Source: a virus. Taken from it: a stretch of 64,000 bases of DNA. The stretch lies in the IMG/VR virus record IMGVR_UViG_3300036818_000127, positions 45,418-109,417 of that record. One strand, 5' to 3'. The notes under the pieces were generated by a model. The model saw nothing but the letters and a program-made list of their open reading frames with translations, was not told where the DNA came from and did no database searches. Of the stretch, positions 36,397 through 64,000 are shown piece by piece (position 1 is the stretch's first letter; every line of letters begins with the position of its first letter). The position numbers were made by a program, and so were the translations under genes.

Positions 36397-36656
36397 ATTG
36401 CAGTACCCTCAAGGCGGGTCGATGGATTGCAACTCGACAGGAATGCGCGGCCAGGTCTCTAGCATGATCAATTGCAGTACCCTCAAGGCGGGTCGATGGA
36501 TTGCAACTGGAATATCCTCTCCAGTAGATATCAACATACATCGGATTGCAGTACCCTCAAGGCGGGTCGATGGATTGCAACTTAGAAAGTCATTCGAGAG
36601 ACACTTCCCTGATTTTGTATTGCAGTACCCTCAAGGCGGGTCGATGGATTGCAACT
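36397..36656 (-). CRISPR. CRISPR array 1: four 38-bp repeats, three 36-nt spacers
   Basis: Identical 38-bp repeats begin at 36397, 36471, 36545 and 36619 (period 74). On the plus strand each starts ATTGCAGTACCC and ends GGATTGCAACT. Spacers occupy 36435-36470, 36509-36544 and 36583-36618 and differ from one another. Read on the minus strand the repeat starts AGTTGCAATCC, contains a GACCC...GGGT stem and ends TACTGCAAT, the more usual CRISPR direction. It would then be co-transcribed behind 36827-37201 and end at the 36348 terminator. No cas genes are nearby. Confidence 0.85.
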
Positions 36657-36826
36657 GCCGCAGCATATAAATCTTGAAAGACCCTACCACTCAACTTTTA
36701 TCGCATGAGCCCTCTCTTGATCTTCTCAGCGCGGTGATTTCTTTTGTTTTGCTAAGGAAAAGCATACCAGATCTGTCAAGTTTCGCAAATTGGTTTTTGT
36801 TAAAATATGGCGTCGATTTGCGAGGA
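36657..36826. other. Gap between array 1 and the next gene
   Basis: No gene or repeat is supported here. The stretch is AT-rich near 36775-36815 and could hold the leader side of array 1 if the array is read from the minus strand. Confidence 0.3.
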
Positions 36827-37201
36827 TCAATATCCCCTATGTTCCTTGTATTCTAGATACTGCCTCTTAACCTCATTGACTATGTTTTGTTTGACCTCAT
36901 CATCAGTTACATTTTTCTCTCTAATGATCTTTTCTGTCATTACTTTTACTTCTATTTGCCCCAAAGCATCAAGGTCACTAAACCCCCACTTTACAGCATA
37001 ATCGCTAAAAACCTGCTCCCGCTCCTGTTTTTCCTTTGCGAAGACATTTTCTGAAGGCATAGTAGCCTTTTTTGTCTGGATGATCTTATTGTATGTCATC
37101 ACCTCAATTTTATCAAGACGCTGTTCTACTCCCGTCAGACGGTCTTCCTGTTCTACAGCCTTGTACCCTTGAAGATAGCGATATTCTTCTTCGTGATCCA
37201 T
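36827..37201 (-). CDS. Charged helical protein, 124 aa
   Basis: The start at 37201 (MDHEEEYRYLQGYKAVEQED) follows AAAGGAGAAAACT. The protein is a long charged helix (RLTGVEQRLDKIEVMTYNKI, EVKVMTEKIIREKNVTDDEV) like the coiled-coil protein at 129-470. It sits between the two arrays and upstream of array 1 on the minus strand. It has no resemblance to a known Cas protein. Confidence 0.6.
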   Translation of the reverse strand: MDHEEEYRYLQGYKAVEQEDRLTGVEQRLDKIEVMTYNKIIQTKKATMPSENVFAKEKQEREQVFSDYAVKWGFSDLDALGQIEVKVMTEKIIREKNVTDDEVKQNIVNEVKRQYLEYKEHRGY

Positions 37202-37304
37202 AGTTTTCTCCTTTGTGTATACAAAAAACCCACAGAACCCTAGTATACTCCCACTGATCAACATCGAAATTCTTGGCAGTGAGTTCTGAGGGTAGGGTAA
37301 AAAG

Positions 37305-37336
37305 AAAGAGGGATAGTGTAGATGCTATCCCTCTTT
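37305..37336 (-). terminator. Terminator after array 2
   Basis: AAAGAGGGATAG at 37305-37316 pairs perfectly with CTATCCCTCTTT at 37325-37336. On the minus strand TTTCTTTTTACCC follows. The hairpin is a close relative of the one flanking array 1. Confidence 0.75.
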
Positions 37337-37337
37337 A

Positions 37338-37586
37338 AATATACCCTCAGATGGATCGATGGAAATGAAAAGTATTAGTCACCTAATTCAGTTGCAGTAT
37401 CCTCAGATGGATCGAAAAGTAAATCTGAACTATCGACTAAAGTAGTTGCAGTACCCTACCAACGGGTCGAATTGGTTAAAGTAGAGAGTATACCCCTATA
37501 CAGTTGCAGTACCCTCTAACGGGTCTAAGTGCAGAAAGCGAGTATCAAACATATGAATACCGTTGCAGTATCCTAGCTCGGATCAA
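37338..37586 (-). CRISPR. CRISPR-like array 2 with covarying ~23-bp hairpin repeats
   Basis: Five units recur every 54-59 bases, with plus-strand anchors GTTGCAGTA at 37391, 37445, 37503 and 37562 and a degraded first unit near 37340. On the minus strand each repeat is GAYCC, a 6-7 base variable loop, GGRT and the tail ACTGCAAC. The stem changes in step: GACCC with GGGT, GATCC with GGAT. Spacers of 31-36 bases are unrelated. The minus-strand distal unit is degraded, as is common at the end of CRISPR arrays. It lies behind the 37631 gene. Confidence 0.65.
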
Positions 37587-37630
37587 CAGAGCTAGGATAC
37601 CAGCACTCCCTCTATCTGTCAAGTCGGATT

Positions 37631-37927
37631 CTATAGTTCCTCTTCATAGGCAGTTCGCAATGGCTGCAATGACTCCTCATACTGAGAACGTAATTCCTGC
37701 TCAGCATCCTCTCGTGTCTTGAATGGCCCTTGGTCTTCTCCCTCGGAATAGAGGCCATCCTTAGTCCCTCGCTGGTAGCCGTACCATCCATCATCCTGCT
37801 GAAATGTCACCATCTCAATCCCGTCTTGCCCACCACCCCAGCTTAGCGGACCAGGGATACCTACAGGGGCTTTCTCACTCAGTTGAACAATTTCTAAGGT
37901 CTGCTTTCTCATCTCTTCATTTGCCAT
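37631..37927 (-). CDS. Unknown protein, 98 aa
   Basis: It contains a Gly-rich segment (KAPVGIPGPLSWGGGQDGIE) and a charged helical C terminus (EDQGPFKTREDAEQELRSQY). It is the last gene of the operon from promoter copy 10, with array 2 directly downstream. Confidence 0.55.
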   Translation of the reverse strand: MANEEMRKQTLEIVQLSEKAPVGIPGPLSWGGGQDGIEMVTFQQDDGWYGYQRGTKDGLYSEGEDQGPFKTREDAEQELRSQYEESLQPLRTAYEEEL

Positions 37928-37978
37928 GATTCTTTTCGCTTTCTTTCTAAAACTAAAACTACCTAGCTACTATTCTAC

Positions 37979-38326
37979 TCAGGAATCCCGCAGGGAATGC
38001 GGTTTTTTCTGTGACTTTTTGTTTCCCTCTTCGATGCGTACTCCATCCTCATCGAAGAGGTCCCAGGGATATGTATTTTCAGAGACACTAAGAGGTGTAG
38101 GTTTGAGCATCGATACGTTTCGCTCATGCCATGCTTTTGCCTTTGCGATATCCTCTTCTGTGGCAGGTGCTAAATCCTCGCTCTCGTATTCATAGGTACC
38201 GCCTGTGTGCAGCAAGGTTGCGAAGATCTTCTTATCCTGGATACGCTCTACTCTAGCGCAAACAGTACCACCAATAGCATCAACGATTTTAACAATTCGT
38301 CCGATTTGATAGGTTATTTCTGACAT
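37979..38326 (-). CDS. Unknown protein, 115 aa
   Basis: AGGAGG lies 5 bases before the ATG and overlaps the stop codon region of the 29-residue gene upstream. The first half is beta-rich (QIGRIVKIVDAIGGTVCARV, KIFATLLHTGGTYEYE), suggesting a small barrel; the C terminus is basic. Confidence 0.55.
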   Translation of the reverse strand: MSEITYQIGRIVKIVDAIGGTVCARVERIQDKKIFATLLHTGGTYEYESEDLAPATEEDIAKAKAWHERNVSMLKPTPLSVSENTYPWDLFDEDGVRIEEGNKKSQKKPHSLRDS

Positions 38327-38327
38327 G

Positions 38328-38417
38328 TTACCTCCTATATCTTATGCAATCGATAATCTCAAACAGTATAAATACTCCTACTACAGCAAGAGCAGCTATC
38401 GTCCCTAATTGTCCCAT
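38328..38417 (-). CDS. Very short membrane protein, 29 aa
   Basis: GAGGAGATAGCACAA precedes the ATG at 38417. The peptide MGQLGTIAALAVVGVFILFE then IIDCIRYRR is one membrane span with a basic cytosolic end. Its last codons contain the ribosome site of the next gene. Confidence 0.55.
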   Translation of the reverse strand: MGQLGTIAALAVVGVFILFEIIDCIRYRR

Positions 38418-38484
38418 TTGTGCTATCTCCTCTGCAAAACTGTCTAGGAATATTCCAAAAATATTCCTGGACCAATTCCCAAGC

Positions 38485-38889
38485 TCATCCAATATCCGTC
38501 AGCAGATCATCGAAGTAGCGGAAATGGGTACCGAGCCTTTGGAGTATTTCCTGATCACCTTCGACCTCTTGGTAGAGATCATACTCTGGACTGTCGAGCA
38601 TATCAAGCACTCGTTGTGGACAGGAAGTATGTAGTTGTTCAGTTTGCTTCTGGCAAAGCCTGTACCGACATCCAAGTTTTGGATGTTTCTCTACAACTCC
38701 AGCATCAATTAGCTCTTTGAGGGCATCATCATACTGTGTCCCTGGGATGCGACAGTCAAGCTGCCCTCTATCAACTCCAAGCTTATCGCAGATCGTCCAC
38801 CCTGCAATATAGGAGCCTTTCGGTGGCATCGTACTTGAGACGATAACCCCTAACATGTTCTGGGCAATAGGACTAAATTGTTCGCTCAT
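38485..38889 (-). CDS. Winged-helix-like protein, 134 aa
   Basis: A region around residues 35-75 (LGVDRGQLDCRIPGTQYDDA then LKELIDAGVVEKHPKLGCRY) has the helix-helix-wing order of a winged helix. The C terminus is acidic and helical. It overlaps the preceding gene by 4 bases. Confidence 0.5.
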   Translation of the reverse strand: MSEQFSPIAQNMLGVIVSSTMPPKGSYIAGWTICDKLGVDRGQLDCRIPGTQYDDALKELIDAGVVEKHPKLGCRYRLCQKQTEQLHTSCPQRVLDMLDSPEYDLYQEVEGDQEILQRLGTHFRYFDDLLTDIG

Positions 38890-39125
38890 TTCTGGAAAAC
38901 CCTTTCTTGTAGTGATAGAGCAGCAAAGAGACCCTCTGCCTCTTCAATAATTATCTGCTGGAATTCCGACGATTCCCCTGCTTCATCGCAGGTAGCGCGA
39001 AAATCAGTGCCTATATCAAAGAAGTGCATCGTTGCTGGCGATTGGCGCATCCAGATTGGATACCTAGAAAGATCTTCTTTAGGCACTTCTTTACCTAAAA
39101 GATCGATAAGATTATTGTCACTCAT
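38886..39125 (-). CDS. Unknown protein, 79 aa
   Basis: The start at 39125 (MSDNNLIDLLGKEVPKEDLS) follows AAAGGAAAAGGA; the longer frame upstream overlaps another gene and looks unrelated in composition. The end is helical and acidic. Confidence 0.5.
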   Translation of the reverse strand: MSDNNLIDLLGKEVPKEDLSRYPIWMRQSPATMHFFDIGTDFRATCDEAGESSEFQQIIIEEAEGLFAALSLQERVFQK

Positions 39126-39144
39126 TCCTTTTCCTTTATACCTT

Positions 39145-39531
39145 CTACCTGCATTCAGCTTCCTTGCTCTGTGCAATAGATATAGCCTTTTGCACCTTTT
39201 TATTAAGGGTACGGTATCGGCTAACTTCCTTTTGCCATGTTTTAACGGGCCAAGCTTCTTTACTCCCCTTGGTTGATTGAATAGAGGGTATGAGGCCGCT
39301 ATGCATTTGAGCATATAAAGCTCGGATATGCTCAGGAGCATAACCAATACTGCCAAAATACTTATCATGGTCACCGATGATCTCGAATGCTTGCAATGCT
39401 AGGACTTCATATTCCTGTTCACATTTGCCAAATTCATCTATGGCATCTACAATCTCTTCATATGCATATCGTGTCAATCCTGCTGCAAGAAATCGAGCAT
39501 GAACATCTCTCTCAGGGACCTGTACGGCCAT
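39145..39531 (-). CDS. Helical protein, 128 aa, first gene of operon
   Basis: AAAGAGGAAACTAA precedes the ATG. It is helical with an acidic middle and basic C terminus (KTWQKEVSRYRTLNKKVQKA). It lies directly behind promoter copy 10. Confidence 0.55.
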   Translation of the reverse strand: MAVQVPERDVHARFLAAGLTRYAYEEIVDAIDEFGKCEQEYEVLALQAFEIIGDHDKYFGSIGYAPEHIRALYAQMHSGLIPSIQSTKGSKEAWPVKTWQKEVSRYRTLNKKVQKAISIAQSKEAECR

Positions 39532-39575
39532 TTAGTTTCCTCTTTCTTTACTAGTAGCCTTCTTGATCTATCCTA

Positions 39576-39604
39576 GGTATAGCATATCTTCCATAAACTG
39601 TCAA
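39576..39604 (-). promoter_or_regulatory. Regulon promoter copy 10 (minus)
   Basis: Minus-strand TTGACA (39604-39599), conserved spacer and TATACC (39581-39576), the only copy with a changed -10 box. It is back to back with copy 11 across about 108 bases. Confidence 0.8.
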
Positions 39605-39712
39605 TACTTTTCACTATGAATATTCCCTCATTTCAAAATATCCCTAAAACTGCCTATAGCATACCAGGCAGGTCCAGTTTTGTGTAGCACTAAATATTCA
39701 CCCTCAAACCTA

Positions 39713-39741
39713 TTGACAGTTTATGGAAGATATGCTATACT
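39713..39741 (+). promoter_or_regulatory. Regulon promoter copy 11 (plus)
   Basis: TTGACA at 39713-39718, conserved spacer and TATACT at 39736-39741, with AATATTCACCC upstream of the -35. Confidence 0.85.
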
Positions 39742-39786
39742 TAGGATAGATAAGAGAGTACTACTAGTAAAGAAAGAGGAAACCAA

Positions 39787-40164
39787 ATGACACAGTTACT
39801 TACCGAGCAAGAAGTTGAAGTCATGAGTGAAGAGCTTAAAATTATCGCCCTTATCTTCACCGAAGACTATTGGGGAAAAGATCCAGAAAAAACAAAGTGG
39901 TATGAAAGCGATCCCGAATATAAGGGGTACATCGCCCAGCATGCTGAAATATATCGAACACTCCTACATGATGGCAATAGAAAGGAAGAGATTAGAAGGG
40001 AGAATAAAAGGAAAGAAAAGAGAGAAAGTAGAAAAGAGTATATAAAAGGTATTCATGCCCTAGGCTTGACAGTTGCAGAGGTTGAGCATCCATACAGTCA
40101 GGCAGCGAGGGATGCCTCTCTAAGGAGAGAAATCCGAAGCGAAGCATATGCAAACAGGTACTAA
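39787..40164 (+). CDS. Charged helical protein, 125 aa
   Basis: The middle is extremely basic (KEEIRRENKRKEKRESRKEY), flanked by acidic helices. AAAGAGGAAACCAA precedes the ATG. It is the first gene behind promoter copy 11. It may bind nucleic acid by charge; no family is recognised. Confidence 0.6.
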   Translation: MTQLLTEQEVEVMSEELKIIALIFTEDYWGKDPEKTKWYESDPEYKGYIAQHAEIYRTLLHDGNRKEEIRRENKRKEKRESRKEYIKGIHALGLTVAEVEHPYSQAARDASLRREIRSEAYANRY

Positions 40165-40191
40165 AATTAGTACCTAGAAAGGAGCAACAAA

Positions 40192-40401
40192 ATGCCACAG
40201 AAACAGAAAAACCCTCTTATAGGTGAAAACATTCTTTTCATTAGCGCAGCACTTCACAAAGGATGCGTAAATGATAAGGAAGAGGGTATTGAGATTTGGA
40301 CAGCAGATGGAGAGTACCTTGTATGTGTAGATAATATTGTAACACATGTTGTGAGTGACCGTAGGGATGCATTGGCTTACTACGGTGAGTACTTCGGATA
40401 A
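40192..40401 (+). CDS. Small protein, 69 aa
   Basis: AAAGGAGCAACAAA precedes the ATG. The product is beta-like in the second half (EGIEIWTADGEYLVCVDNIV). Function is unknown. Confidence 0.5.
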   Translation: MPQKQKNPLIGENILFISAALHKGCVNDKEEGIEIWTADGEYLVCVDNIVTHVVSDRRDALAYYGEYFG

Positions 40402-40412
40402 GGAGGTAGATC

Positions 40413-40613
40413 TTGAGAAAGCTACAAGTAAGTACTGAGTACCAGTACAAGTCTAACGGGAAAGAGTACTACAAGGTTTACATGAGTAGGGCTGATGGAT
40501 CAATGGTAAAAGGCACTCGAACACTTGGTGCCTTTACTGGATCAAAATTGAAGCAAGTCCAGAAGGATATGCAAGATAACATCAACCGTGGCGCTTGGAG
40601 CAATAGGGAGTAA
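40413..40613 (+). CDS. Small basic protein, 66 aa, TTG start
   Basis: GGAGGTAGATC precedes TTG at 40413. The sequence (YQYKSNGKEYYKVYMSRADG) has the strand-turn-strand look of a small DNA-binding or integrase arm-type domain, but the match is weak. Confidence 0.45.
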   Translation: MRKLQVSTEYQYKSNGKEYYKVYMSRADGSMVKGTRTLGAFTGSKLKQVQKDMQDNINRGAWSNRE

Positions 40614-40686
40614 GGAGTTTTGTTCTTATCTATCCCTTATCTGCTATAATTCTATATAATTTCCATATCTCGAACTGATTCTGGGA

Positions 40687-40770
40687 ATGCTTACACCGCA
40701 AGAACGGGCACAGTTCGAGAGTGAGTTACAAGTCAGCATCAATCACTGGCTTGCTAAGAAGGCGATGTAA
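40687..40770 (+). CDS. Micro-ORF, 27 aa
   Basis: The frame MLTPQERAQFESELQVSINH then WLAKKAM ends with TAATATG, so its stop nearly overlaps the next start. There is no clear ribosome site. It could be a leader peptide. Confidence 0.3.
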   Translation: MLTPQERAQFESELQVSINHWLAKKAM

Positions 40771-40771
40771 T

Positions 40772-40984
40772 ATGCTGAATGACAGAGAAGAAGTTACGCC
40801 AGCAAAGGCATTAGATTATATCCTCCTTCTCATGGATCGAGTAAGGAAAGCACTTGACCTTCCTCAGCCTGAACGAATGATGGTCCTAGCAATCATGAAT
40901 GACTGGATGAAAGAGGCTGTTGCGATGCTTGAAGCAGCAGTAGAACAGGAGAATAGTGATAGAGATGATAGCGCAAAATCGTGA
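40772..40984 (+). CDS. Helical protein, 70 aa
   Basis: The start at 40772 follows GAAGGCGATGTAAT. The sequence is helical (AKALDYILLLMDRVRKALDL, AIMNDWMKEAVAMLEAAV). It overlaps the next gene. Confidence 0.5.
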   Translation: MLNDREEVTPAKALDYILLLMDRVRKALDLPQPERMMVLAIMNDWMKEAVAMLEAAVEQENSDRDDSAKS

Positions 40985-41258
40985 AGAAGGTGGAAGGCTT
41001 GTTCGGCTGGCTTGGATACGCTGGGCCAAGCAGCAGCCTGACCCCAAGTTTTCCTGGCTCGTTGAGTGGGATGATCCTCGATTTCCAGAGGCAGACAGGG
41101 AGGCTGATCGACAGATTTGGGATGCAATTGTTGCCCCATACAATGAATCAGTTGTAGCTCTCATAGCTGAGAATCAGCAGCTACGAAAGGACCTTGATAA
41201 AGCAATAGAAGCTCAGTATAGGCTAGAAAGATTGCTAGAGGAAAAGGATCAAGCATGA
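40965..41258 (+). CDS. Helical protein with coiled-coil end, 97 aa
   Basis: The ATG at 40965 is inside the previous gene; a GTG at 40956 is an alternative. The C terminus (LIAENQQLRKDLDKAIEAQY) is a coiled coil. It overlaps the next gene by 4 bases. Confidence 0.5.
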   Translation: MIAQNREEGGRLVRLAWIRWAKQQPDPKFSWLVEWDDPRFPEADREADRQIWDAIVAPYNESVVALIAENQQLRKDLDKAIEAQYRLERLLEEKDQA

Positions 41259-41440
41259 GAGATGAGATAATCCTTGCACTAGCAGGGTCTCTTGTGCTAG
41301 CAGCTCTCTCAATGCTAGCACTTTTCTCGCCAAAAGTGCAAAGCTACAAGTATATTAATCAGTGTTTAGTAGCAATGATAGTCTATATTATCATTGCTAC
41401 TTTTGTCATGGTTTATGCATGGTATACAGTAAAAGCCTAA
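41255..41440 (+). CDS. Two-pass membrane protein, 61 aa
   Basis: Two hydrophobic segments (IILALAGSLVLAALSMLALF and CLVAMIVYIIIATFVMVYAW) flank a short polar loop (SPKVQSYKYINQ). Small size and two spans recall phage holins, but no lysis gene is adjacent. Confidence 0.6.
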   Translation: MRDEIILALAGSLVLAALSMLALFSPKVQSYKYINQCLVAMIVYIIIATFVMVYAWYTVKA

Positions 41441-41458
41441 AGAGTAGGGAGGATAAAA

Positions 41459-41746
41459 ATGGATTGCTCTTGTGCCACTTGGTGTGGAAGTCCTTGTTAT
41501 TATCTGAAACTAGGAGACATAAAAGAACTGCCTGAACTTGCTGCGTCAATCCACATGCGCCACGTGATCCTGTGGACAAATGGCATGTGTATGGTATTTG
41601 ATGATAGGGGTGAGCAGATGCCGTATTACCAAGGCAGATTTGATAATAGGGCACAGCGCATCAATAATGTATTTCGTGGCGAGTGGGAGTATGGAGACTG
41701 GAATAGGGGTATCTTGAGTGGTGTGCCATTAGAGCTAAAGGCATAA
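41459..41746 (+). CDS. Cys-rich small protein, 95 aa
   Basis: The N terminus MDCSCATWCGSPCYYLKLGD has five Cys in 12 residues and is likely a metal site. Aromatic residues follow throughout (RINNVFRGEWEYGDWNRGIL). It is the last gene before the terminator at 41756. Confidence 0.55.
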   Translation: MDCSCATWCGSPCYYLKLGDIKELPELAASIHMRHVILWTNGMCMVFDDRGEQMPYYQGRFDNRAQRINNVFRGEWEYGDWNRGILSGVPLELKA

Positions 41747-41755
41747 GTCTATCTA

Positions 41756-41806
41756 GAGAAGAAACTGCTAATCTTGCAATGGAGATTAGCAGTTTCTTCG
41801 TTTTTG
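41756..41806 (+). terminator. Intrinsic terminator
   Basis: AAGAAACTGCTAATC at 41759-41773 pairs perfectly with its complement at 41784-41798 and is followed by CGTTTTTG. Confidence 0.85.
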
Positions 41807-41859
41807 GCACACTTGTTCGTTGACTTGCTGATGAGGTAATGGTAGGTTGATGAGTAGAT

Positions 41860-41885
41860 GCGTGCACGCATGCATGCATACTTTA
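41860..41885 (+). promoter_or_regulatory. Candidate partition site repeats (GCATGCATGCATAC)
   Basis: GCGTGCACGCATGCATGCAT followed by ACTT lies just before parA. Related blocks are at 42866-42883 (GCACGCATGCATGCGTAC) inside the next gene and 43316-43330 (GCATGCATGCATACT) right after it. The recurrence of this palindromic motif around parA and its partner suggests centromere or operator sites. Confidence 0.5.
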
Positions 41886-41901
41886 ATAGATGGAGGATTA
41901 A

Positions 41902-42726
41902 ATGCCTGTTAAAAAAAGAACAAGAGTATGGACGTTCCTAATCCGCAAAGGGGGTTCGGGCAAAACAACATCTGCTGTGAACTTTGCGACAATACTTGCA
42001 TGTATGCATAATCGCAAAGTCTGCTTAATCGACTTAGATCCACAGGGTAATTCCACTACCCACCTTGGGATTAACCCAGAGATACTTCCTACCTCAGTAA
42101 ATACCCTCTTTACAGAGATTGGAGTTGACCCCCATTCTGTCGTGCAGCCTGTTTTGTTTACCGTCAGCAACAAGGGCTATTCAATTGGTGTCATTCCTGC
42201 CAAGCGGGACCTAGATGAGACTGACCTCAGTATGAAGGCAACGCAGGTAGGGTTACTCAAGCCAATCATCGATGCACTCTCTGAAGATTGTGATGATATC
42301 GTGATTGATACGCGACCCACGCGGAGCATGCTGACTATTAGTGCTCTCATTCCAGCTACCCATGCCATCATCCCTATGGAAGCTGGCGTTTTTGCCCTAG
42401 ATGCGCTCAAGGACACTGAGCAGGATATCAATAATGTGAGGCAAGGGCTTAATCCAGGATTGAAGCTCGTAGGTATTCTACCGACGCGGGTACGTGAGAG
42501 CACAAATCTATCTAGGGTTATCTTAGGAGAGGCTGCGAAGGGATTTGATCATCTACTCATGCGCTACCAAGAGAAGGGAGAATCGCGGTTACTCCTGATC
42601 CATGATAGCGTTCGTCTCGGTGAAGCTCCAGCCTATGGACTTCCTGGAATAGCCTACGACCCCAAGAGTCCAGCTGTGCAGGATTACATCAAGTTCACGG
42701 AGGTACTCCATGCCCAAGAAACCTGA
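41902..42726 (+). CDS. parA: ParA-type partition ATPase, 274 aa
   Basis: KGGSGKTT at residues 16-23 is the deviant Walker A motif. VCLIDLDPQGNSTTHLGI (Walker A' region) and DIVIDTRPTRSMLTISALI (Walker B region, DTRP where DTPP is usual) follow. ParA proteins use ATP and non-specific DNA to segregate low-copy plasmids. It overlaps the next gene by 17 bases, the usual parAB coupling. Confidence 0.88.
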   Translation: MPVKKRTRVWTFLIRKGGSGKTTSAVNFATILACMHNRKVCLIDLDPQGNSTTHLGINPEILPTSVNTLFTEIGVDPHSVVQPVLFTVSNKGYSIGVIPAKRDLDETDLSMKATQVGLLKPIIDALSEDCDDIVIDTRPTRSMLTISALIPATHAIIPMEAGVFALDALKDTEQDINNVRQGLNPGLKLVGILPTRVRESTNLSRVILGEAAKGFDHLLMRYQEKGESRLLLIHDSVRLGEAPAYGLPGIAYDPKSPAVQDYIKFTEVLHAQET

Positions 42727-43315
42727 CCTCAGTAAGGCATTCGGCGAGCGATTTAAGACAGAGGAGAAAGTAGACGTGCAGGACCCTATAGCTGCTGCCA
42801 TGCAGGCAACAAAGGATGCAGAGAAGGATGCAATCCTTCTGGCTGGGTTGCCTGAAAACAAGGATGCACGCATGCATGCGTACACGTCAGATGTGATACC
42901 TGAAAGCATGAATGTATCCATAAATGAAGGCCCGCCAGCAGGGAGGCAGGCAAGAAGGAAAGTACCTACGCCAGCACGTGAGCAAGCAAGCAAGACTGAA
43001 AGCAAACCTACACGGAAGCCTGCTAACCAACAGGAAAGCAAGGATGAAAACGAGCAAGCAGACATAGATAAAGGAGTACTAGTAGACATGCTGTATGATC
43101 AGATCCAGCAGAAGAAACACTTATCTAATGGATCATTTCGCTATCGAGCAGATGAGCTGGAGAAGCTAGAGGCTATCTATCGGGACCTTGATAGGGCAAA
43201 GCCTGGTCGCATTAGCAAGAATGATATTGCGCGGCTGGCACTTATCGCCTTCTATGAGGACTATGAGCAGAATGGGGATGAGAGCATACTGGCACAGGTA
43301 TTTAAACGCATGTAA
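42710..43315 (+). CDS. Probable partition adaptor (ParB-role protein), 201 aa
   Basis: The position directly behind and overlapping parA indicates the centromere-binding partner. The protein is not a standard ParB: there is no ParB nuclease-like domain. It has a disordered basic middle (TPAREQASKTESKPTRKPAN) and a C-terminal helical domain (RYRADELEKLEAIYRDLDRA, RISKNDIARLALIAFYEDYE) like ribbon-helix-helix or HTH adaptors of type Ib systems. Confidence 0.6.
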   Translation: MPKKPDLSKAFGERFKTEEKVDVQDPIAAAMQATKDAEKDAILLAGLPENKDARMHAYTSDVIPESMNVSINEGPPAGRQARRKVPTPAREQASKTESKPTRKPANQQESKDENEQADIDKGVLVDMLYDQIQQKKHLSNGSFRYRADELEKLEAIYRDLDRAKPGRISKNDIARLALIAFYEDYEQNGDESILAQVFKRM

Positions 43316-46784: not shown

Positions 46785-46994
46785 ATGAAGTGCCACATAT
46801 GCCTGCGAGAGCAAGGCATCATCCCATCTCAACATGACAATGACCAGCACACCCTATGTGATGAGCATAGAAATGAGGCAGCATCAACCTTTTATGTCGG
46901 CAAGCTTGCAAGAGAGCAGGCAGGTCGCTTATATGCAGGACATCACGATCTGAATAGGCTACTTCGATTGGTGGGTAGACAGTCAGGGACCTGA
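46785..46994 (+). CDS. Small zinc-finger protein, 69 aa
   Basis: MKCHICLREQGIIPSQHDND then QHTLCDEHR gives a CxxC...CxxH zinc site. The C terminus is a basic helix. GGAAAGGACTTCTT precedes the ATG. It is the last gene before structured RNA copy B. Confidence 0.6.
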   Translation: MKCHICLREQGIIPSQHDNDQHTLCDEHRNEAASTFYVGKLAREQAGRLYAGHHDLNRLLRLVGRQSGT

Positions 46995-47404
46995 TCCCTT
47001 AAAAGGGATGGGCTTGTAGAGATGGGGGTAGTTTTTGCCCGTCTTCTCTCTAGCTTCACCTGACCAGACCCAGCCAGGGCTGTTCCTAGAAGGCTCATAG
47101 AGAGCGGGAAACAGCTATCGGGCTACGTTAGAGGCGAAATTAGGTACCATAGGATGCGAGGGCCAGTCCGATGCTCTACGGTTGCAGGTTAAACAGGTTT
47201 ACGAGGGTTAGTGCCAGTGCTTGCAACGACAAACCGCTTTCTAACTTCGTCGAGGCCCCCATTACCTGGGAAACCAGTGGGGTTTAGCCGTTCCGTCATA
47301 AAACGGCTCCCCGCAAGGGGATTACTCCTAAACTAATCCAGCCTGCGGGCTACTTCTTTCCTCCCAACCACTAAAAGGGAATGGGTTTCCAGAAAGGATA
47401 ACTG
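46995..47404 (+). ncRNA. Large structured leader RNA, copy B
   Basis: This ~410-base gene-free stretch is rich in local pairing (CATTACCTGGGAAACCAGTG, CCCCGCAAGGGG). Its last ~110 bases match copy A at 9962-10440, including the GCAA-loop hairpin, CCAGCCTGCGGGCT, TTCTTTCCTCCCAA and AGAAAGGA just before a start codon. The 5' parts are much less alike. Two copies upstream of unrelated genes and on opposite strands argue for a functional RNA rather than a shared gene remnant. Confidence 0.6.
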
Positions 47405-54549: not shown

Positions 54550-54578
54550 TTGACAGGTAGCAATGGTTATGCTATGCT
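54550..54578 (+). promoter_or_regulatory. Promoter of array 3, overlapped by a palindrome
   Basis: TTGACA at 54550-54555 and TATGCT at 54573-54578 are 17 bases apart. ACAGGTAGC at 54552-54560 is repeated inverted as GCTACCTGT at 54575-54583, covering both promoter boxes, so a repressor could block it. Transcription would start at the first repeat of array 3. Confidence 0.7.
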
Positions 54579-54584: not shown

Positions 54585-54775
54585 ACAGCCCGTCTGGGAT
54601 TGAAAATCTCTGATCTCTACTACTCCGATAGGAGCCTATACATCCCGCTAGCGGGATTGAAACATTTCATCAATTGGTCAGAAATGACCAAGTTAAAACG
54701 GCGTGCCGTCTTGAAACACCTGCCAGTCTCCTTTTGACTGGCAGTCTTTTTGTACCCGATTAGAAGGATTGAAAC
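54585..54775 (+). CRISPR. CRISPR-like array 3: hairpins with a TTGAAAC tail
   Basis: Four units carry the tail (A/C)TTGAAA(A/C) at 54599, 54656, 54710 and 54768, spacing 57, 54 and 58. The hairpins in front differ in sequence but keep a stem: CCCGTCTGGG, ATCCCGCTAGCGGGAT, ACGGCGTGCCGT; the fourth, ACCCGATTAGAAGG, is weak. Spacers of 33-36 bases also contain small hairpins (CTCCGATAGGAG, TTGGTCAGAAATGACCAA). A promoter starts exactly at unit 1 and a terminator follows unit 3. ATTGAAAC is a common CRISPR repeat end. The fourth unit may simply be a ribosome site. Confidence 0.55.
54720..54751 (+). terminator. Intrinsic terminator inside array 3
   Basis: CTGCCAGTC at 54720-54728 pairs with GACTGGCAG at 54736-54744, followed by TCTTTTT. 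It would limit the array transcript to about 165 bases. Confidence 0.8.
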
Positions 54776-57623: not shown

Positions 57624-57654
57624 GAGGACTCGAGCCATACACGCACGAGTCCTC
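57624..57654 (+). promoter_or_regulatory. Intercistronic hairpin before 57747
   Basis: GAGGACTC at 57624-57631 pairs with GAGTCCTC at 57647-57654. It is followed at 57672 by TGTGGGCTGTAGTGAGTTGA, which recurs almost exactly at 58286 after the hairpin there. Confidence 0.5.
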
Positions 57655-57746
57655 CAGCTTCACGGCTCAATGTGTGGGCTGTAGTGAGTTGATATAGCAC
57701 AAAATCGTGAGGGCCACGGTCCTCTAGTCGAGAAAGAAGGTATCAC

Positions 57747-57944
57747 ATGAGACAGGAAAGAATTAGAAAAGAGCATCCAGCCAGTGAGACTGCAAAGCAT
57801 GAAGGCGTCCCCTGCAGCCATGAAGAGCTGTATAATTATGCTCAGCAAGAGATAGCGCAGCATAGCGCACAAGCCGCTGAGAGCGCCCGTCGTCTCCAAG
57901 AGTGGGATGATGAGCAGCATCGAATTGCACGGGAGTCAAAATGA
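57747..57944 (+). CDS. Small charged protein, 65 aa
   Basis: GAAGGTATCAC precedes the ATG. The product is charged and helical (CSHEELYNYAQQEIAQHSAQ, ESARRLQEWDDEQHRIARES). It overlaps the next gene by 4 bases. Confidence 0.5.
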   Translation: MRQERIRKEHPASETAKHEGVPCSHEELYNYAQQEIAQHSAQAAESARRLQEWDDEQHRIARESK

Positions 57945-58234
57945 GCTGGAACATTAGTCGTGCGAAGGCTTTTCTTCCCACTCTGTTAGGTATTCATGAT
58001 CAGCATCCCGATTTCTTCGATGCTGATCTCACCTACAACAATGTGAGGTCTCGTCTGCAAGCAGCGGGATGGGACTTCATCACAAAGCCCCTATTCTGGG
58101 ATTCGGGAGTGGAAAAAGACCAATATAAGTATCTCGTAAATGAACAGCCCCATGCAGACATCCTCGTGATGAATTTGCACGGCTACCACGATCTAGAAGG
58201 CGTAGATGCATGGCTAAGAGGTAGAGGAAAGTAG
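57941..58234 (+). CDS. Unknown protein, 97 aa
   Basis: It is mixed alpha/beta (ILVMNLHGYHDLEGVDAWLR near the end). No motif is recognised. It is followed directly by a long hairpin. Confidence 0.5.
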   Translation: MSWNISRAKAFLPTLLGIHDQHPDFFDADLTYNNVRSRLQAAGWDFITKPLFWDSGVEKDQYKYLVNEQPHADILVMNLHGYHDLEGVDAWLRGRGK

Positions 58235-58294
58235 CCCACCGCACAAACACTCAACCGGCTTCCACCACGGAGCCGGTTGAGTGTTGTGTGGGCT
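58233..58294 (+). promoter_or_regulatory. Long intercistronic hairpin with a conserved loop
   Basis: AGCCCAC pairs with GTGGGCT at the base and ACTCAACCGGCT pairs with AGCCGGTTGAGT higher up, leaving the loop TCCACCACGG. The terminator at 58607 has the same loop (TCCACAACGG) on a different stem. Confidence 0.65.
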
Positions 58295-58342
58295 GTGGTG
58301 AGTTGATATAGTTAGGGCATAAGCCCTAGAAAGAGAAAGTAA

Positions 58343-58588
58343 ATGAAGCATTCAACAAGTTTAAATTTCTTCGATGGCACAGCAGATCGAGCTGCTGAAA
58401 TTATCCGTAAGGATTTCCCAGGTGTCGAGGTGAGCACAGACAAGCATGGTAATCTCGATATCGAGCATAATTTCTACATCGGGCGTCATCTCAACGATAA
58501 ATATAATCCCTGTCCAAGTATCGGCAGTCGGCCTGTGCATCCTGCTTTTGAAAATTGTAGTGTGACGTTCCACGACGAAGAGAATTAG
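58343..58588 (+). CDS. Unknown protein, 81 aa
   Basis: AGAAAGAGAAAGTAA precedes the ATG. The protein has a mixed fold with a His-rich C terminus. It ends the plus-strand run. Confidence 0.5.
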   Translation: MKHSTSLNFFDGTADRAAEIIRKDFPGVEVSTDKHGNLDIEHNFYIGRHLNDKYNPCPSIGSRPVHPAFENCSVTFHDEEN

Positions 58589-58606
58589 CCCACACAACAA
58601 TAATCA

Positions 58607-58642
58607 AGCCTGCTTCCACAACGGAAAGCAGGCTCTTTTTTT
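58607..58642 (+). terminator. Intrinsic terminator with the shared TCCACMACGG loop
   Basis: AGCCTGCTT at 58607-58615 pairs with AAGCAGGCT at 58626-58634, followed by CTTTTTTTA. The loop TCCACAACGGA matches the hairpin at 58233-58294. Confidence 0.8.
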
Positions 58643-58667
58643 ATACCCACAAATGGCTCAATACTTC

Positions 58668-58958
58668 CTACTTTTTCATCTTTACATACAACCTCATCCA
58701 ATATCTTCTACTCTGTTCAATTAGCTCATCTTTCCTTGACTCAACATCTTCGAGCTGCTTTGGGTGGATCTTCCAACGTCCACCACGCCCTCTACTATTG
58801 AGCTTCCTTTCCCTGTCTGCCTGTAACCATCCCTTTCTACACCAAGTACATGCAGTCGCCAGTGATACGTGATATATCTCGCTTACTTGTCTTGTTGTGT
58901 AGTAGTCATGTTCTACACGTAAATTACTAAGAGTCTGCTGATGATACTCTGTTGCCAT
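58668..58958 (-). CDS. MerR/excisionase-like HTH protein, 96 aa
   Basis: YYTTRQVSEIYHVSLATACT then WCRKGWLQADRERKLNSRGR and GGRWKIHPKQLE is the HTH_17-type fold with its wing. A helical basic C terminus follows. It is probably a regulator or recombination accessory factor. Confidence 0.7.
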   Translation of the reverse strand: MATEYHQQTLSNLRVEHDYYTTRQVSEIYHVSLATACTWCRKGWLQADRERKLNSRGRGGRWKIHPKQLEDVESRKDELIEQSRRYWMRLYVKMKK

Positions 58959-59227
58959 AGTGCGGTCCTCCTTCTAAAATAGCTTTACATCTATAAGACG
59001 ATAGAAAGATACAAAAATAACACAGACCATATGTTCTAATAGTATTGCCATCTATGTTATACAAGAAGTTCCTTTGCAGACTACTTGACATGAGAGATAT
59101 AATGCTATCTATGCATCTATTTAGAGGTATGAAATAGGAGCTGGCTAGGCCAATACCTAACTCATACTATGATACTCATTCCTTGTCTCTTACTTGTTTA
59201 CCTCGCTTTGCTGTTATGCGGTTCTGT
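58959..59227. other. Intergenic region with a possible short transcript
   Basis: No gene is supported. TTGACA at 59085-59090 lies near TATAAT at 59098-59103, but the 7-base spacing is wrong for a promoter. A short hydrophobic frame from 59169 runs into the terminator below and is not accepted. Confidence 0.3.
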
Positions 59228-59268
59228 AAAAAGAGGCTTACTCATTGGGGGAGTAAGCCTCTTTTTTT
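59228..59268. terminator. Bidirectional intrinsic terminator
   Basis: AAAAAGAGGCTTACTC at 59228-59243 pairs perf­ectly with its complement starting GAGTAAGCC at 59251, with T-runs on both strands. It ends the minus-strand gene 59268-59594. Confidence 0.85.
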
Positions 59269-59594
59269 TACGCATTGTATCTCTCTCTACTTGGGAGAAG
59301 CACATATCCATAATCTTGCACGCAATATACATAAAAGCCGGTCCATATGATTTTGCGTCGAATACGGTTGATATGCTTTTCCATCATTACCCTCGCATTC
59401 CTGTCAGCATCGCGGTTATAGACAATGCGTGCAAGATCATCATAAGTAACCGGAGTGCCATTCCTCAGGGGATAGATCAATCGGTACTCAGTCGGCGTGA
59501 AAGGTATGCCTCTACCCTCTGAGACAAGCGCATACCTTTGACTGCTCCACGGTACTCCCTTGGCCCCAGCGAGCTTCTTAAACTCTATTTGCAT
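59268..59594 (-). CDS. OmpR/PhoB-type winged-helix protein, 108 aa
   Basis: FTPTEYRLIYPLRNGTPVTY, then DDLARIVYNRDADRNARVMM, EKHINRIRRKI and CVQDYGYVLL form the complete C-terminal DNA-binding domain of OmpR-family regulators. There is no receiver domain. It lies 12 bases downstream of the TnpB-like nuclease gene on the same strand, so both may be one transcript. Confidence 0.75.
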   Translation of the reverse strand: MQIEFKKLAGAKGVPWSSQRYALVSEGRGIPFTPTEYRLIYPLRNGTPVTYDDLARIVYNRDADRNARVMMEKHINRIRRKIIWTGFYVYCVQDYGYVLLPSRERYNA

Positions 59595-59606
59595 CTTCTT
59601 CTTTAC

Positions 59607-61298
59607 TCATGCTTTAAATCCTCGTGCAAACTCTTCCCATGTTGTCCGCTCTGCTTCTGGTATCTCCTTTTGCTTCTGCTTCGATCTGAGCTGTAAGAAG
59701 GGAAGCTTGCGCACAATATTGATACCACTCTGCTGTCCTACATCTGTTGTGTACCCACATTCAATGCAATGAAAGAGGTTCTTATCTTCTTTGTCGAAGT
59801 TCTCTTTGCTCACACAGCCACATTGCGAACAAGTGGAAGCCGTGTAAGCACTGCTGACTTTACGGAGTGGTGTTAGACCAGCAATGTCTAGTTTGGTCGC
59901 TAGGAGGTCCTGGAGCTTCTGATATTGCCTTCTCTGGAGTATACGGTTGAAGGCTTTCCCCTTCCCTCCAACACGCTTTTTCGGGGCAATGTAGCTTAGA
60001 TCTTCTACGATCACCTGGGACTGATGTGTACGGGCCATCTCGACAATACTATTAGCTACTTGGTGGACATGGCGGTCTGCAATCCGTGCGCGTCTCCTAT
60101 CCCCTTTCGTTGTTTTTCCCTTTTTCTGCTTGATAGCTATATTCTTTTCAATCGCACCAATTAATCCGTTTAATTCATCGGTACTAACATTGAAAGTTTC
60201 AATGACTTCCTTCCCGTCCAGGGAAACGACAGCCCCAGATGCTAAATAAGAAATAGATCGGTCAATACCTAGGTAGGTCGCTGGCTTTATTCGCTCAGGT
60301 CTGGGGAACTGGAAGGCGACATGGAGCTGGTACTTATCTCCATATTTCATCAGTTTAGCAGACACAGGCCAAGCAGGCTTTACACTAGTATCGCCTGACC
60401 TCTGCGGAAGGAAGGCATGTTTAGTAAAACGTAGCATGTTCTCATGCCACCTTCCCATTTCTAGAGGGACAAGAATGGAGCGAGTCCCATTTCCAAAGGA
60501 CCTGACCTCCTGATACCTGCCCATTCCAAGATGGTAATCCCCCAAGATAGTGTGAGTACTTGTACTGTACCGCTTCAGTCCTGTTTTATGTTCCTGGAAA
60601 CCTTTGTTCCGCATGTAAATATTCTCAGGTTCACGGATATCGATGTATTGTCCATCTATATCGATCCTTCTTCCATGATTGGACAATTCTCCGATAACAT
60701 ACAGTCTCACATAGAATGTGCGCGTCTCTGGATTGTAGAAAATACGGAATCCCTGATCAGGCATGCTATTCCCGAAAGATAAGGGCACCAGCCCTCGCTG
60801 TCGTGTGCGGAGCAGTTGGTCGCGGAGTGTATTCTCTTCTTCTAGGTCATCTGAGATAGTCCGCAGACCTTCTAGTGCGGCCTCTCGCTTTGCATCACGG
60901 TTATCTTCTTCAACCCTGTTAGGGTAGGATGGCTTCTGCTTTTCTGTCAATGACAGTTCAGCGAAACTCAAGAGGGTGCTAGCAATATCTGACTTCATCG
61001 ATGCACGCAGCCGGGCCTCTAGAGGTTCAAGTAACTGGTCCAGATCTGGTATCTTGTTCGTTCGGAAAAGAGCAGTTTCTAATGTCCTAGCATTCGTTAG
61101 CTCTTCTCCATTGCTCTCGCGTACTGCAAATACAGCCATTGCATGCAATTCCTCTGCTGTATAGCTAGAGAAGAAATCAAGGATTGATGTGTAGGCTCTT
61201 GTGTAATTCTGCAATGCCTCATCAAGCACTGCTCTGATGTGTTTCGTGGGGTTGTGGATGGTGAACACTGCTGTTCGGTGAATGTGTTTTCCTGGCAT
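59607..61298 (-). CDS. TnpB/Cas12-like RuvC nuclease, 563 aa
   Basis: The RuvC parts are intact: Asp346 in YLGIDRSISYL, Glu432 in VIVEDLSYIAPKK, and Asp519 in GYTTDVGQQSGINI. A zinc finger (Cys490, Cys493, Cys511, Cys514) sits between motifs II and III, as in TnpB and Cas12. The protein is longer than most TnpBs (about 350-450 aa) because of ~150 extra residues before residue 340. No TnpA transposase and no obvious IS200/IS605 ends are seen. GAAGGAGGGCATGCC precedes the ATG. A structured RNA candidate and the TGCAAC array are read away from it. TnpB and Cas12 proteins cut DNA with a guide RNA. Confidence 0.8.
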   Translation of the reverse strand: MPGKHIHRTAVFTIHNPTKHIRAVLDEALQNYTRAYTSILDFFSSYTAEELHAMAVFAVRESNGEELTNARTLETALFRTNKIPDLDQLLEPLEARLRASMKSDIASTLLSFAELSLTEKQKPSYPNRVEEDNRDAKREAALEGLRTISDDLEEENTLRDQLLRTRQRGLVPLSFGNSMPDQGFRIFYNPETRTFYVRLYVIGELSNHGRRIDIDGQYIDIREPENIYMRNKGFQEHKTGLKRYSTSTHTILGDYHLGMGRYQEVRSFGNGTRSILVPLEMGRWHENMLRFTKHAFLPQRSGDTSVKPAWPVSAKLMKYGDKYQLHVAFQFPRPERIKPATYLGIDRSISYLASGAVVSLDGKEVIETFNVSTDELNGLIGAIEKNIAIKQKKGKTTKGDRRRARIADRHVHQVANSIVEMARTHQSQVIVEDLSYIAPKKRVGGKGKAFNRILQRRQYQKLQDLLATKLDIAGLTPLRKVSSAYTASTCSQCGCVSKENFDKEDKNLFHCIECGYTTDVGQQSGINIVRKLPFLQLRSKQKQKEIPEAERTTWEEFARGFKA

Positions 61299-61386
61299 GG
61301 CATGCCCTCCTTCAATCTGGTTAGCATCTATAATACCCTATCTTTTACGTCGGAACATGAAAAATTGTTCATAATTGGATTAGGTA

Positions 61387-61415
61387 TTGACAACTTGATT
61401 AGCGGCTATTATACT
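61387..61415 (+). promoter_or_regulatory. Strong promoter reading toward the TGCAAC array
   Basis: TTGACA at 61387-61392 and TATACT at 61410-61415 are separated by exactly 17 bases (ACTTGATTAGCGGCTAT), unrelated to the regulon spacer. It lies 89 bases from the nuclease start and points the other way. Confidence 0.75.
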
Positions 61416-61421
61416 CTGCTC

Positions 61422-61735
61422 TGTAATCTTCGGATTGCTTGGGCTCGTGAGCTACGGCTCGGTAGTTGCAGGCCCAATCCCTGGGAGAGTGCCGTATGAC
61501 TTCTGATTCCCTGTTGAGGGATAAGAAGCGAGTCATGGTCATATAGGGTACATTCGTGTGCCTTGTGACTATGCCTTCTCTGATTCCCGATATCGGGAAA
61601 AGGAAGCTTGACACCTTCTGGAGAGAACAACGCCACAAAACCGGAAACGGTACTCGCTTCGCGGTGGCTCCCTTTGGGCCAACTCTCATGTGCAGCACGA
61701 TGAATGAGCAGGGGATGTTGCAACTCTGCTAATCT
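61422..61735 (+). ncRNA. Structured RNA candidate between the nuclease and the array
   Basis: No gene fits this stretch. It folds locally well: TTGGGC/GCCCAA around GAGCTACGGCTC, the palindrome TTCCCGATATCGGGAA inside a larger CCTTC/GGAAG pairing, and CGCCAC/GTGGC around CCGGAAACGG. It contains GTAGTTGCAGG near 61462, whose GTTGCA is the reverse complement of the array motif TGCAAC, and ATGTTGCAAC near 61716. A guide scaffold or tracr-like role is possible. It starts at the promoter above. Confidence 0.5.
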
Positions 61736-61793
61736 ACTGATGCTTTGATGGGATACACTGCTACAGCCTGGCAGTGGGACGGCTCACTCTCAT

Positions 61794-61905
61794 GTTGCAT
61801 TAGAACTTGTTGAGACGCTCCTTTACAACTGAAGGAATGAAGCCTTTCAGTATTTGTTGCATTATGCTGAAATGCGGTTCTACCTGCTCATAGCTAGTTG
61901 TTGCA
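61794..61905 (-). repeat. Inverted-orientation copies of the array motif
   Basis: GTTGCA occurs at 61794, 61856 and 61900, spaced 62 and 44 bases. These are the reverse complement of TGCAAC, which takes over from 62026 onward. The orientation switch marks the start of the main array. Confidence 0.5.
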
Positions 61906-62025
61906 TAGTTGATGAGCAGGTAGGTGTCTATAAGAGAGTCTGTGCAGCTATGTAAGAGGATATATAGCGCAGCATTGCTTGTAACCAATAAGGATAGATG
62001 ACAACATAGAGTATAGGCTGTCGAC

Positions 62026-64000
62026 TGCAACCCGTTACTTGATATGTCAGAGTGTAACTTAGATGGATCTATGCAACCACGGGCTTTTATTTGCAATTGC
62101 AGCAAGCAATATGGCAAGATGCAACAAATGGACAATTTATATGATCCTGCAACCATCAGACAGGGCTACAGCCTGCTCGCTAACCATGCAACCTTGGGAG
62201 AGTTCTGATCGCAATACTGAAGTAGTAGGTGATAATTGCAAGAGGCTGACTGGAAGAGGGAGGGCGCAGCTAGTGCAACCTCAAGCAGTATCAGGGATGC
62301 AACTGATGTGATTGGAGAGGAATGCAGCAACTAGGCACTCCCATCGAGATGCAATACTGGCGATCTATCCATGTAACCATCTTCGTCGGTCCTGCATGCA
62401 ACGTTCTTGACCCTTACTGCAACAAGCAGTTCGCAATCGCAACTTGTATGGTTTAGGCTAGTATTATCCATGTAACTATTGAACGCTGTCCGGCAATGAT
62501 GAGCAACGGTGAAAGGCAAAGTCTAGTGTGCTGCAACTATCTTATAGTCTAGACTAAATGCAATGAATATCAAGGTAAGCCTCGCAACCATTTCAATGCA
62601 ACTAAGAGAAGTATAGGTAGTATAGTGCAACTCACAAATGACGGCAACATCAAGAAGTCACAGTATGCAACCAAGCTACGCGGGACCTTGCAACAACGGG
62701 CAATAGCTATATGCAACAAGAATGTCATATTGGACAGTGCAACAACGAGTAGAAGATTTGCATGCAGCACAAATGAAATACTACATAGCAACATATGGAC
62801 CAGCGATCAAGGGAACTGCAACAAGAGGGCGTTGTCTGGAGGATGTAACACAAGGAGCTAGATAGCGATTGCAACTTTCATAGAGTCACGCAACTGTAGT
62901 AGATGCAATGGTACAAGCTCGTTCACAACTAACATGACACTGCAACAAGCAAGAGACACTGCAACAAAAAGGATATAGGGACAATTGCAATAATCTACGA
63001 TGGCCCCATGCAACCTGATAGAGGAAGATATTCAATAATTGTAACTGAAACCTCCGCAACTATAGAATATGCATTCTAGACTAAGAATTATGCAACTAGT
63101 TGGTTGCTAAGGCATAATGCAGCTATCAGCGGCTAGATATGCAACTTACTTTCAACACACTCTTGCAACATCCATCTCGACATCTCAATTCTATCAATGC
63201 AGCGACTTTGATGTTCCTTACATGCAATGAGTAGAGAAAATGCAACAGCAAAAGAGTGAAGAACGCAACTATCATTGACCAGCTATGCAACTATGGTTCT
63301 CATATCATAATAGTTTATACGCAACTTCTGTAGAGGCATCATGCAACATGTATTGAAAGCATTGCAACCTCATCTGACAGCATCCTGATGCAACATGATT
63401 TCTCTTTGTACATGCATCTCGCAACAACTGGCAATGACATCTACAACGGTAGAGGAATGGGGCATAGCATGCAACTCAGGCAAGTTATCACTGCAACATG
63501 GGGAAGTCTTGCGATATCAATGCAACCAGTGTTCACATACGTGGAAGGAATGCAACATGTTCAATAATATGCAGCCTCAATGGATTTTATGCAACTATTA
63601 GGTAAATAGAGAGCTATGCAACTGATTAACCCTATTCACTCAATATGCAACAAATAGGTGGTACTGCAACACTGATGAGGGTTTTGCATCATCATACCCA
63701 AGATGCAACTATGGCTTTTTGAGGCAACTACGAACATGTCAAATATATGTAACGATCAAGAGAGAACCTAGTGCAACCATGGGCGGGCATGCAATGAGTA
63801 GACATAGCAACAACTGAGTGCAACATTCTTGATCGAGAGAAATGCAACATAAGGGTTATCATAGCAATAGCCAAGCATGAATGATGCAACCATGACAGAG
63901 CAAGCAACACACATGTGGTACATTGCAGCATTGGAAAGCAACTAGAGGGGAAATAAGCAGCAGGTAAACGGAATAATAGATGCAACAATATCTGTAGGAC
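62026..64000 (+). repeat. TGCAAC quasi-periodic array, runs off the window
   Basis: By hand count GCAAC occurs 58 times on the plus strand in under 2 kb, usually as ATGCAAC, TTGCAAC or (A/G)TGCAAC, while the reverse complement is almost absent. Adding one-base variants (GCAAT, GTAAC, GCAGC) fills most gaps, and steps are mostly 15-30 bases, commonly 22-26; four steps in a row at 62644-62713 are exactly 23. The intervening segments, typically 16-21 bases, look unrelated to each other. No credible gene is present. It has the layout of a guide array with a minimal repeat; an array of protein-binding sites is the alternative. Confidence 0.8.

Follow-up and report, generated by a model that had tools for sequence, protein, structure and literature searches.

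How far can the repeat of a guide-RNA array shrink, and do arrays with very different repeats on one genome belong to one system? These questions are raised by a 64,000-bp stretch of viral DNA (hereafter the window; contig positions 45418-109417 of IMG/VR virus record IMGVR_UViG_3300036818_000127), on which an initial annotation had described a graded series of four arrays, from a full repeat through a hairpin plus tail to a short tail alone. Three of these (arrays 1, 2 and the terminal array T), together with a further array outside the window (array L), look like one system, with repeats from 38 nt down to a 6-nt handle, TGCAAC, directly 5' of each guide-like stretch. We consider it fairly likely that they encode the guides of a single phage-encoded type V CRISPR (clustered regularly interspaced short palindromic repeats)-like system, in which a leader RNA acts as the trans-activating CRISPR RNA (tracrRNA) and the effector more likely blocks transcription. 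This would be an unusually stripped-down CRISPR-type array, its guides apparently encoded by a bacterial virus. The whole account rests on sequence: from the enriched, uniformly oriented handle, the promoter- and terminator-like sites, the homologous and covarying leaders (three, those of T, L and the relative G002), complementarity, gene linkage and the arrays of relatives, we infer transcription, processing, binding, DNA targeting and silencing.

The source record is a virus contig of 109,417 bp with 127 identical bases at both ends, and is thus a complete circular genome of 109,290 bp. It encodes a terminase, a portal protein, a head protease and a major head protein, which identifies the element as a tailed phage and not the plasmid that it had been taken for; a ParA gene is also encoded.

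Arrays reduced to a 6-nt handle

Array T does not stop at the end of the window: it continues across the 127-bp overlap of the contig ends and measures ~3 kb in total, with ~98 units, counting one-letter variants, whose median spacing is 24 nt. Exact TGCAAC occurs 52 times in 2.5 kb, whereas none of 200 dinucleotide shuffles had more than 6, in agreement with the earlier view that this array retains the handle alone, and over the same 2.5 kb GTTGCA is absent from the array strand. The one-letter variants TGCAGC, CGCAAC, TGTAAC and AGCAAC are likewise above expectation. Each unit consists of the handle and a guide-like stretch of ~17 nt (range 13-21), 23-24 nt in all, and the stretches between handles are A-rich (0.35 versus 0.27 genome-wide). 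A short hairpin with a T-rich tail, read from the sequence at about contig position 640, may close the array. Any tendency of the array RNA to be less structured than expected was small, and Rfam gave no match across the array region. Unit spacing has no codon period, and a collagen-like coding origin was rejected because the spacing is no multiple of 3. Repeat-finders tuned to repeats of at least 20 nt would overlook such arrays; indeed, the tandem-repeat scan of the window left array T unlisted.

On the minus strand, from contig 32.9 to 31.4 kb, lies array L, with 26 exact TGCAAC copies against a shuffle maximum of 4. In its own direction it resembles a transcription unit, with a TATAAT-type promoter, a leader, 4-5 full repeats (36 nt, of the type GTTGCAAGGGTCTAGTCGCTGGGGGATGATTGCAAC, with spacers of ~34 nt), hairpin-plus-handle units and ~25 TGCAAC-only units, and it ends at an inverted repeat, CCCACTTTC..GAAAGTGGG, followed by TTTTT; this repeat, seen in the sequence, was left unlisted by the terminator scan because its loop is long. 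Since all three kinds of unit stand in array L, the graded series exists within a single array. The four arrays named in the initial annotation are thus real, while its series was incomplete until array L was added.

Scans with the terminase yielded three related contigs of 83-85% identity. Two of them, G002 and G003, carry TGCAAC-only arrays closing at a strong terminator-like hairpin, with 37 and 16 copies of the handle compared to shuffle maxima of 6 and 4, respectively; G001, a complete 91-kb relative, has neither arrays nor effector. Across T, L, G002 and G003 the median handle spacing is 23-26 nt without a reading-frame period, and reverse-complement copies of the handle are absent. When the G002 and G003 arrays were aligned, handles differed at 6 of 114 positions (5%) with no gaps, compared to 46 of 475 positions (10%) and 20 gap columns outside the handles, and whole units were exchanged. 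In addition, two further elements of locus L149 were observed: at 6000-6200 (-), a single-unit RNA in which a promoter-like site and a terminator-like hairpin accompany one TGCAAC and a guide that the G003 array also has; and at ~9800-10400, directly before the G002 array, many operator-site-like copies of GTCGTACAC/GTGTACGAC. The G002 array is also preceded by AGATATGCTATACT, a promoter-like element found at more than 8 sites in the G000 genome.

Arrays 1 and 2 represent the longer end of the series (Table 1). Array 1 is the conventional 38-bp minus-strand array that had been described, with identical repeats at 36397-36434, 36471-36508, 36545-36582 and 36619-36656 (period 74) whose minus-strand end reads ...GGGTACTGCAAT. 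Array 2 keeps a hairpin and a handle, as noted before; four of its five units end in ACTGCAAC, and its stems covary between copies (GACCC/GGGT, GATCC/GGAT). The terminator-like sequences after the two arrays are almost identical. We assign both to the same system as T and L because their hairpins covary and the handle TGCAA(T/C) fits the anti-handle of the leader described below. Identical repeats of 25-40 nt with constant spacers are found in array 1 only, and roughly at the start of array L and in a small G002 array; array T, most of L, the main G002 array and G003 have 6-nt handles at irregular spacing. The proposal of one lineage sharing a spacer-plus-short-handle logic is well supported for arrays 1, 2, L and T, through the common handle, the hairpin of arrays 1 and 2, the series within array L and the anti-handle leaders, and probably does not extend to array 3, whose handle differs. 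The idea that repeat parts were shed by simple erosion in place is not borne out, because erosion would have kept handles ~72-74 nt apart; the compact units were probably made or trimmed as such. Loss of full repeats and addition of compact units by another process would both be compatible with these data.

A leader RNA and a Cas12f-like gene beside array T

A tracrRNA-like leader with an anti-repeat is located between the effector gene and array T. The leaders of T and L align well from the promoter through CTCCCTT, and a third leader, in G002, is followed by full-repeat CRISPR units ending GGGATCTATGCAAC. The 5' core of the leader forms three helices with 15 pairs, all paired in the three sequences; 5 pairs are changed on both sides, 2 of them with three pair types. 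When the partner was slid by 1-3 columns as a control, at most 56% of positions paired and no double change remained. UNCG loops cap two of the hairpins. Between the helices, GTAGTT(G/A)CA is conserved and unpaired, and is the complement of (C)TGCAAC. The leader RNA thus resembles a tracrRNA. An exact leader-motif scan gave 0 matches, and with a degenerate leader pattern G002 was the sole match among viral contigs. In whole-sequence folding, only leader T and the stretch that follows it (61700-61990) were more stable than shuffles; near 61712 (+), this stretch includes a unit resembling the end of a full repeat, GGGGATGTTGCAAC.

The probable effector gene, which the initial annotation does not mention, is directly adjacent to array T and divergent from it. 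Its 563-aa product carries the Pfam Cas12f1-like_TNB zinc finger (35 bits, above the cut-off of 26.3), and its best PADLOC match is Cas12f (E 1.6e-21), below all subtype cut-offs (Cas12f2 69 bits versus 450, CasX 59 versus 200, guided_TnpB 71 versus 100). Single-sequence scans of viral and genome contigs found no relatives of it. A small winged-helix gene directly downstream is a possible operon partner. Neither Cas1 nor Nop (PF01798) was matched in the genome; Cas1 is also missing from many type V-F loci. A single trans-acting effector for the arrays, namely this neighbouring Cas12f-like protein, is plausible.

Alignment to CasX and TnpB showed that the RuvC acids D346 and E432 are kept, while Gly521 (codon GGA) stands where both have the third, catalytic Asp; the motif, CGYTTDVGQQSGINI, also lacks the usual N and A. 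Because this third acid is missing, the effector is predicted to be nuclease-dead or weak, and it may repress or silence rather than cut DNA. In a variant compatible with our preferred reading, the guides are real and the effector still cuts rival phage or host DNA, with D519, two residues from the lost position, or another acid substituting. The intact D346 and E432 would allow this, but the alignments place the catalytic Asp at Gly521 itself and the motif is altered around it, so we regard this variant as unlikely.

Salinibacter phages encode a distant homologue, of the same protein family (24-29% identity over its length), beside a CRISPR array. The repeat there ends ACCCTTTGGGGTGCTGAAAG, with the handle TGAAAG, and CTTTCA occurs twice between gene and array (two copies in at most 0.1% of shuffles). 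Since these phages pair TGAAAG with CTTTCA, handle and anti-handle have changed together. Their handle is preceded by an ACCC..GGGT hairpin, a feature of arrays 1 and 2.

Table 1. Locations of the arrays and associated features in the window.
Feature	Position	Strand	Basis or remark
Terminator-like inverted repeat and T-run after array 1	36348..36388	-	read from sequence; unlisted by terminator scan
Array 1, 4 identical 38-bp repeats, 3 spacers of 36 nt, handle TGCAAT	36397..36656	-	repeat scan
Terminator-like site of array 2	37305..37336	-	terminator scan
Array 2, 5 hairpin units, covarying stems	37340..37588	-	sequence
Promoter-like site of array 2, TTGACA-17-TATCCT	37594..37622	-	promoter scan
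Promoter-like site of array 3, TTGACA-17-TATGCT	54550..54578	+	promoter scan
Array 3, 3 units of hairpin, (A/C)TTGAAA(A/C) and guide-like stretch	~54589..54717	+	sequence
Terminator-like site of array 3	54720..54744	+	terminator scan
Small winged-helix (Trans_reg_C-like) gene, directly downstream of effector	59268..59594	-	E 1e-5, 26.0 bits versus cut-off 26.2
Probable effector, 563-aa RuvC/zinc-finger type V (Cas12f/TnpB/CasX-like)	59607..61298	-	profile matches, alignment
Promoter-like site of leader and array T, TTGACA-17-TATACT, 11/12	61387..61415	+	promoter scan
Leader RNA T, tracrRNA candidate, UNCG hairpins, covarying stems	61416..61692	+	homology to leaders of L and G002
Anti-handle GTAGTTGCA, unpaired in covarying fold, complements TGCAAC	61462..61470	+	alignment, fold
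Strongly folding stretch, z -4.3, hairpin loops showing GTTGCA	61700..61990	+	folding versus shuffles
Array T, TGCAAC-only units	62026..64000	+	runs on over circular junction to contig position ~640

Proposed mechanism and alternatives

In Cas12 guide RNAs and omegaRNA the guide is preceded by a pseudoknot (repeat:anti-repeat 1 in Cas12f), and the TnpB guide is 16 nt long (PMC10097598). Based on these precedents, we propose that each array is transcribed as a precursor, and that the leaders of T and L act as tracrRNA, their unpaired GUAGUUGCA pairing with the UGCAAC handle before any guide. This pairing would create the pseudoknot strand required by Cas12 and TnpB immediately 5' of the guide. 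With the remaining scaffold provided in trans by the leader, the unit could shrink to the 6-nt handle and a guide of ~13-21 nt. The 563-aa protein would bind this dual RNA and be directed to complementary DNA, where, lacking the third RuvC acid, it would more likely block transcription than cut.

Taken to its full extent, the proposal is of a repeat shrunk to a 6-nt pseudoknot strand, with one tracrRNA in trans, more than 100 guides in ~4.5 kb and a nuclease-dead Cas12 silencing many host or rival genes; this extended form is tentative, and we give it somewhat less than an even chance. If it is correct, array L would capture the transition, its full repeats and 6-nt units being part of one transcript, the minimal repeat of a type V guide array would be the pseudoknot-making strand alone, and one genome would offer a natural gradation of repeats between 38 and 6 nt, with a bearing on the relation of single-guide TnpB RNAs to CRISPR arrays. 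A small, possibly non-cutting effector addressing more than 100 sites would add a new layer to phage-host control and make a compact tool for multiplex use.

Several observations weigh against the proposed system. No target was found for any guide, whether in the phage itself, among its relatives or across the phage collection. The guides are irregular in length, unlike those of CRISPR. The effector was not seen on G002 and G003, which are fragments of 19 and 8 kb, and its AlphaFold model, with a predicted local distance difference test (pLDDT) score of 35, was not used. The anti-handle of leader L, GTTACA, has one mismatch to TGCAAC, although it complements the variant TGTAAC in full. Leaders and full repeats showed no second repeat:anti-repeat pairing above shuffles, and the L and G002 leaders, folded as whole sequences, were no more stable than shuffles. 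Finally, the guide ACTGATGAGGGTTTTG or close variants follow the handle in T, L, G002 and G003, and 6 cross-unit guide pairs with at most 3 mismatches occur outside full repeats where 0.24 are expected; upstream 16-mers, however, gave nearly as many near-identical pairs as downstream ones, and because this control also finds shared stretches, guide sharing lends the system weak support.

The absence of targets would suit a different role, in which the arrays are decoys, or RNA anti-CRISPRs (Racrs), whose handles titrate a host type V system's tracrRNA or effector, with filler between them. Solitary phage repeat units inhibit CRISPR, type V-A included (PMC10651486), and a decoy would tolerate irregular unit length and fast turnover. 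Against this, the phage's own effector and at least two anti-handle leaders would be titrated too, some guides recur, and more than 100 units seems beyond need. We therefore think a decoy rather improbable.

Alternatively, TGCAAC might act at the DNA level, as a binding site for partition, packaging or replication control or as an operator of the winged-helix protein, considering that array L is near the terminase genes, a ParA gene exists, the sites share one orientation and a Trans_reg_C-like gene adjoins the effector. This appears less probable still, because promoter-like and terminator-like sequence flanks arrays L and T, the handle is common to full-repeat units with covarying RNA hairpins, its complement sits in a covarying leader fold, and the spacing is irregular and not helical. 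That these are CRISPR arrays in decay, without function, whose TGCAAC has persisted by chance or recency is very improbable: full repeats and the degenerate handles TGCAGC, TGTAAC and CGCAAC do coexist, but decay would have preserved the 72-74-nt spacing, handles have diverged less than guides between G002 and G003, and the promoter-like and terminator-like sites are intact.

Known systems, array 3 and other features

Of the known systems, Cas12f1 (type V-F) resembles the proposed guide system in its compact RuvC/zinc-finger effector and in the pairing of a handle directly 5' of the guide with a tracrRNA. The repeat of Un1Cas12f1 likewise starts with GUUGCA and finishes with UGCAAC. In type V-F, as here, the tracrRNA(-like) sequence is encoded between effector gene and array (PMC8548392). 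Different from Cas12f1, most units here have 6-nt repeats, more than 100 guides are irregular (13-21 nt), Cas1 and the third RuvC acid are missing, and the effector reaches 69 of the 450 bits at the Cas12f2 cut-off. TnpB-omegaRNA (OMEGA) systems share the RuvC and TNB fold, a 16-nt guide and a pseudoknot before it (PMC10097598); here, an array of many guides and its separate leader take the place of one fused omegaRNA, and no transposon ends were seen.

Cas12m occurs with ordinary CRISPR arrays and TldR with a single guide, whereas the phage has a long array of 6-nt handles. Cas12m (type V-M) and TldR are type V/TnpB proteins of mobile elements that bind DNA and silence without cutting (PMC11013384, PMC11656645, PMC13418256), a likeness that extends to the phage protein in its mobile-element origin and, as predicted above from sequence, in its non-cutting mode.

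TIGR-Tas systems likewise have tandem guide arrays that are carried by phages, use short repeats and include a terminator (PMC12045711), but this assignment was rejected: they have two alternating 8-12-nt repeats, 9-nt spacers and a Nop-domain protein, whereas the genome has no Nop-domain protein (PF01798) and a single 6-nt motif whose median spacing is 24 nt. VIPR, which likewise involves programmable RNAs encoded by phage (PMC13142463), was rejected since RAMP proteins and GGY/NN tandem motifs were not seen and the top array k-mers are TGCAAC and its flanks. Phage mini-arrays and Racrs are virus-borne repeat units under phage promoters; Racr repeats match a host CRISPR repeat and come with no effector of their own, whereas arrays T and L contain very many units and come with a neighbouring effector and a leader of their own. 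A triple-TGCAAC scan of viral contigs was swamped by collagen-like coding repeats (GGTGCAAC), and the densest matches inspected were coding or simple repeats.

Array 3 may belong with the mini-arrays. Its three true units, with differently paired stems, agree with the earlier description of a hairpin plus ATTGAAAC, while a fourth copy (54768-54775) has no real hairpin and stands beyond the terminator, directly before an ATG. As the anti-handle cannot pair with its handle, array 3 most likely serves another partner, and it is probably an unrelated, separate lineage. ATTGAAAC is what we take to be the usual 8-nt handle of type I/III CRISPR RNAs, which makes a mini-array or anti-CRISPR RNA for a host system more likely; no Cas6 was found in the phage genome.

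Other features were noted in passing. A HEARO RNA, the omegaRNA type of IscB, lies at 46982-47265 (+) with 102.9 bits and is apparently an orphan, no large IscB-like open reading frame (ORF) being listed alongside. The relative G001 has an apparent TnsA-type gene and short transposon-end-like repeats GAAAAGTTATGTGAGAAA (L153 ~16090-16600; L154 437-628), a possible Tn7-like insertion. In the phage genome, a Haem-NO-binding (HNOB/V4R) protein is encoded beside a histidine kinase at 20354-22371 (-) of the window, palindrome-like ACTAGTGAGACTAGT repeats cluster at 30229-30417 within or between short ORFs, and a tandem repeat of 39/78 bp lies inside an ORF at 15606-15758.

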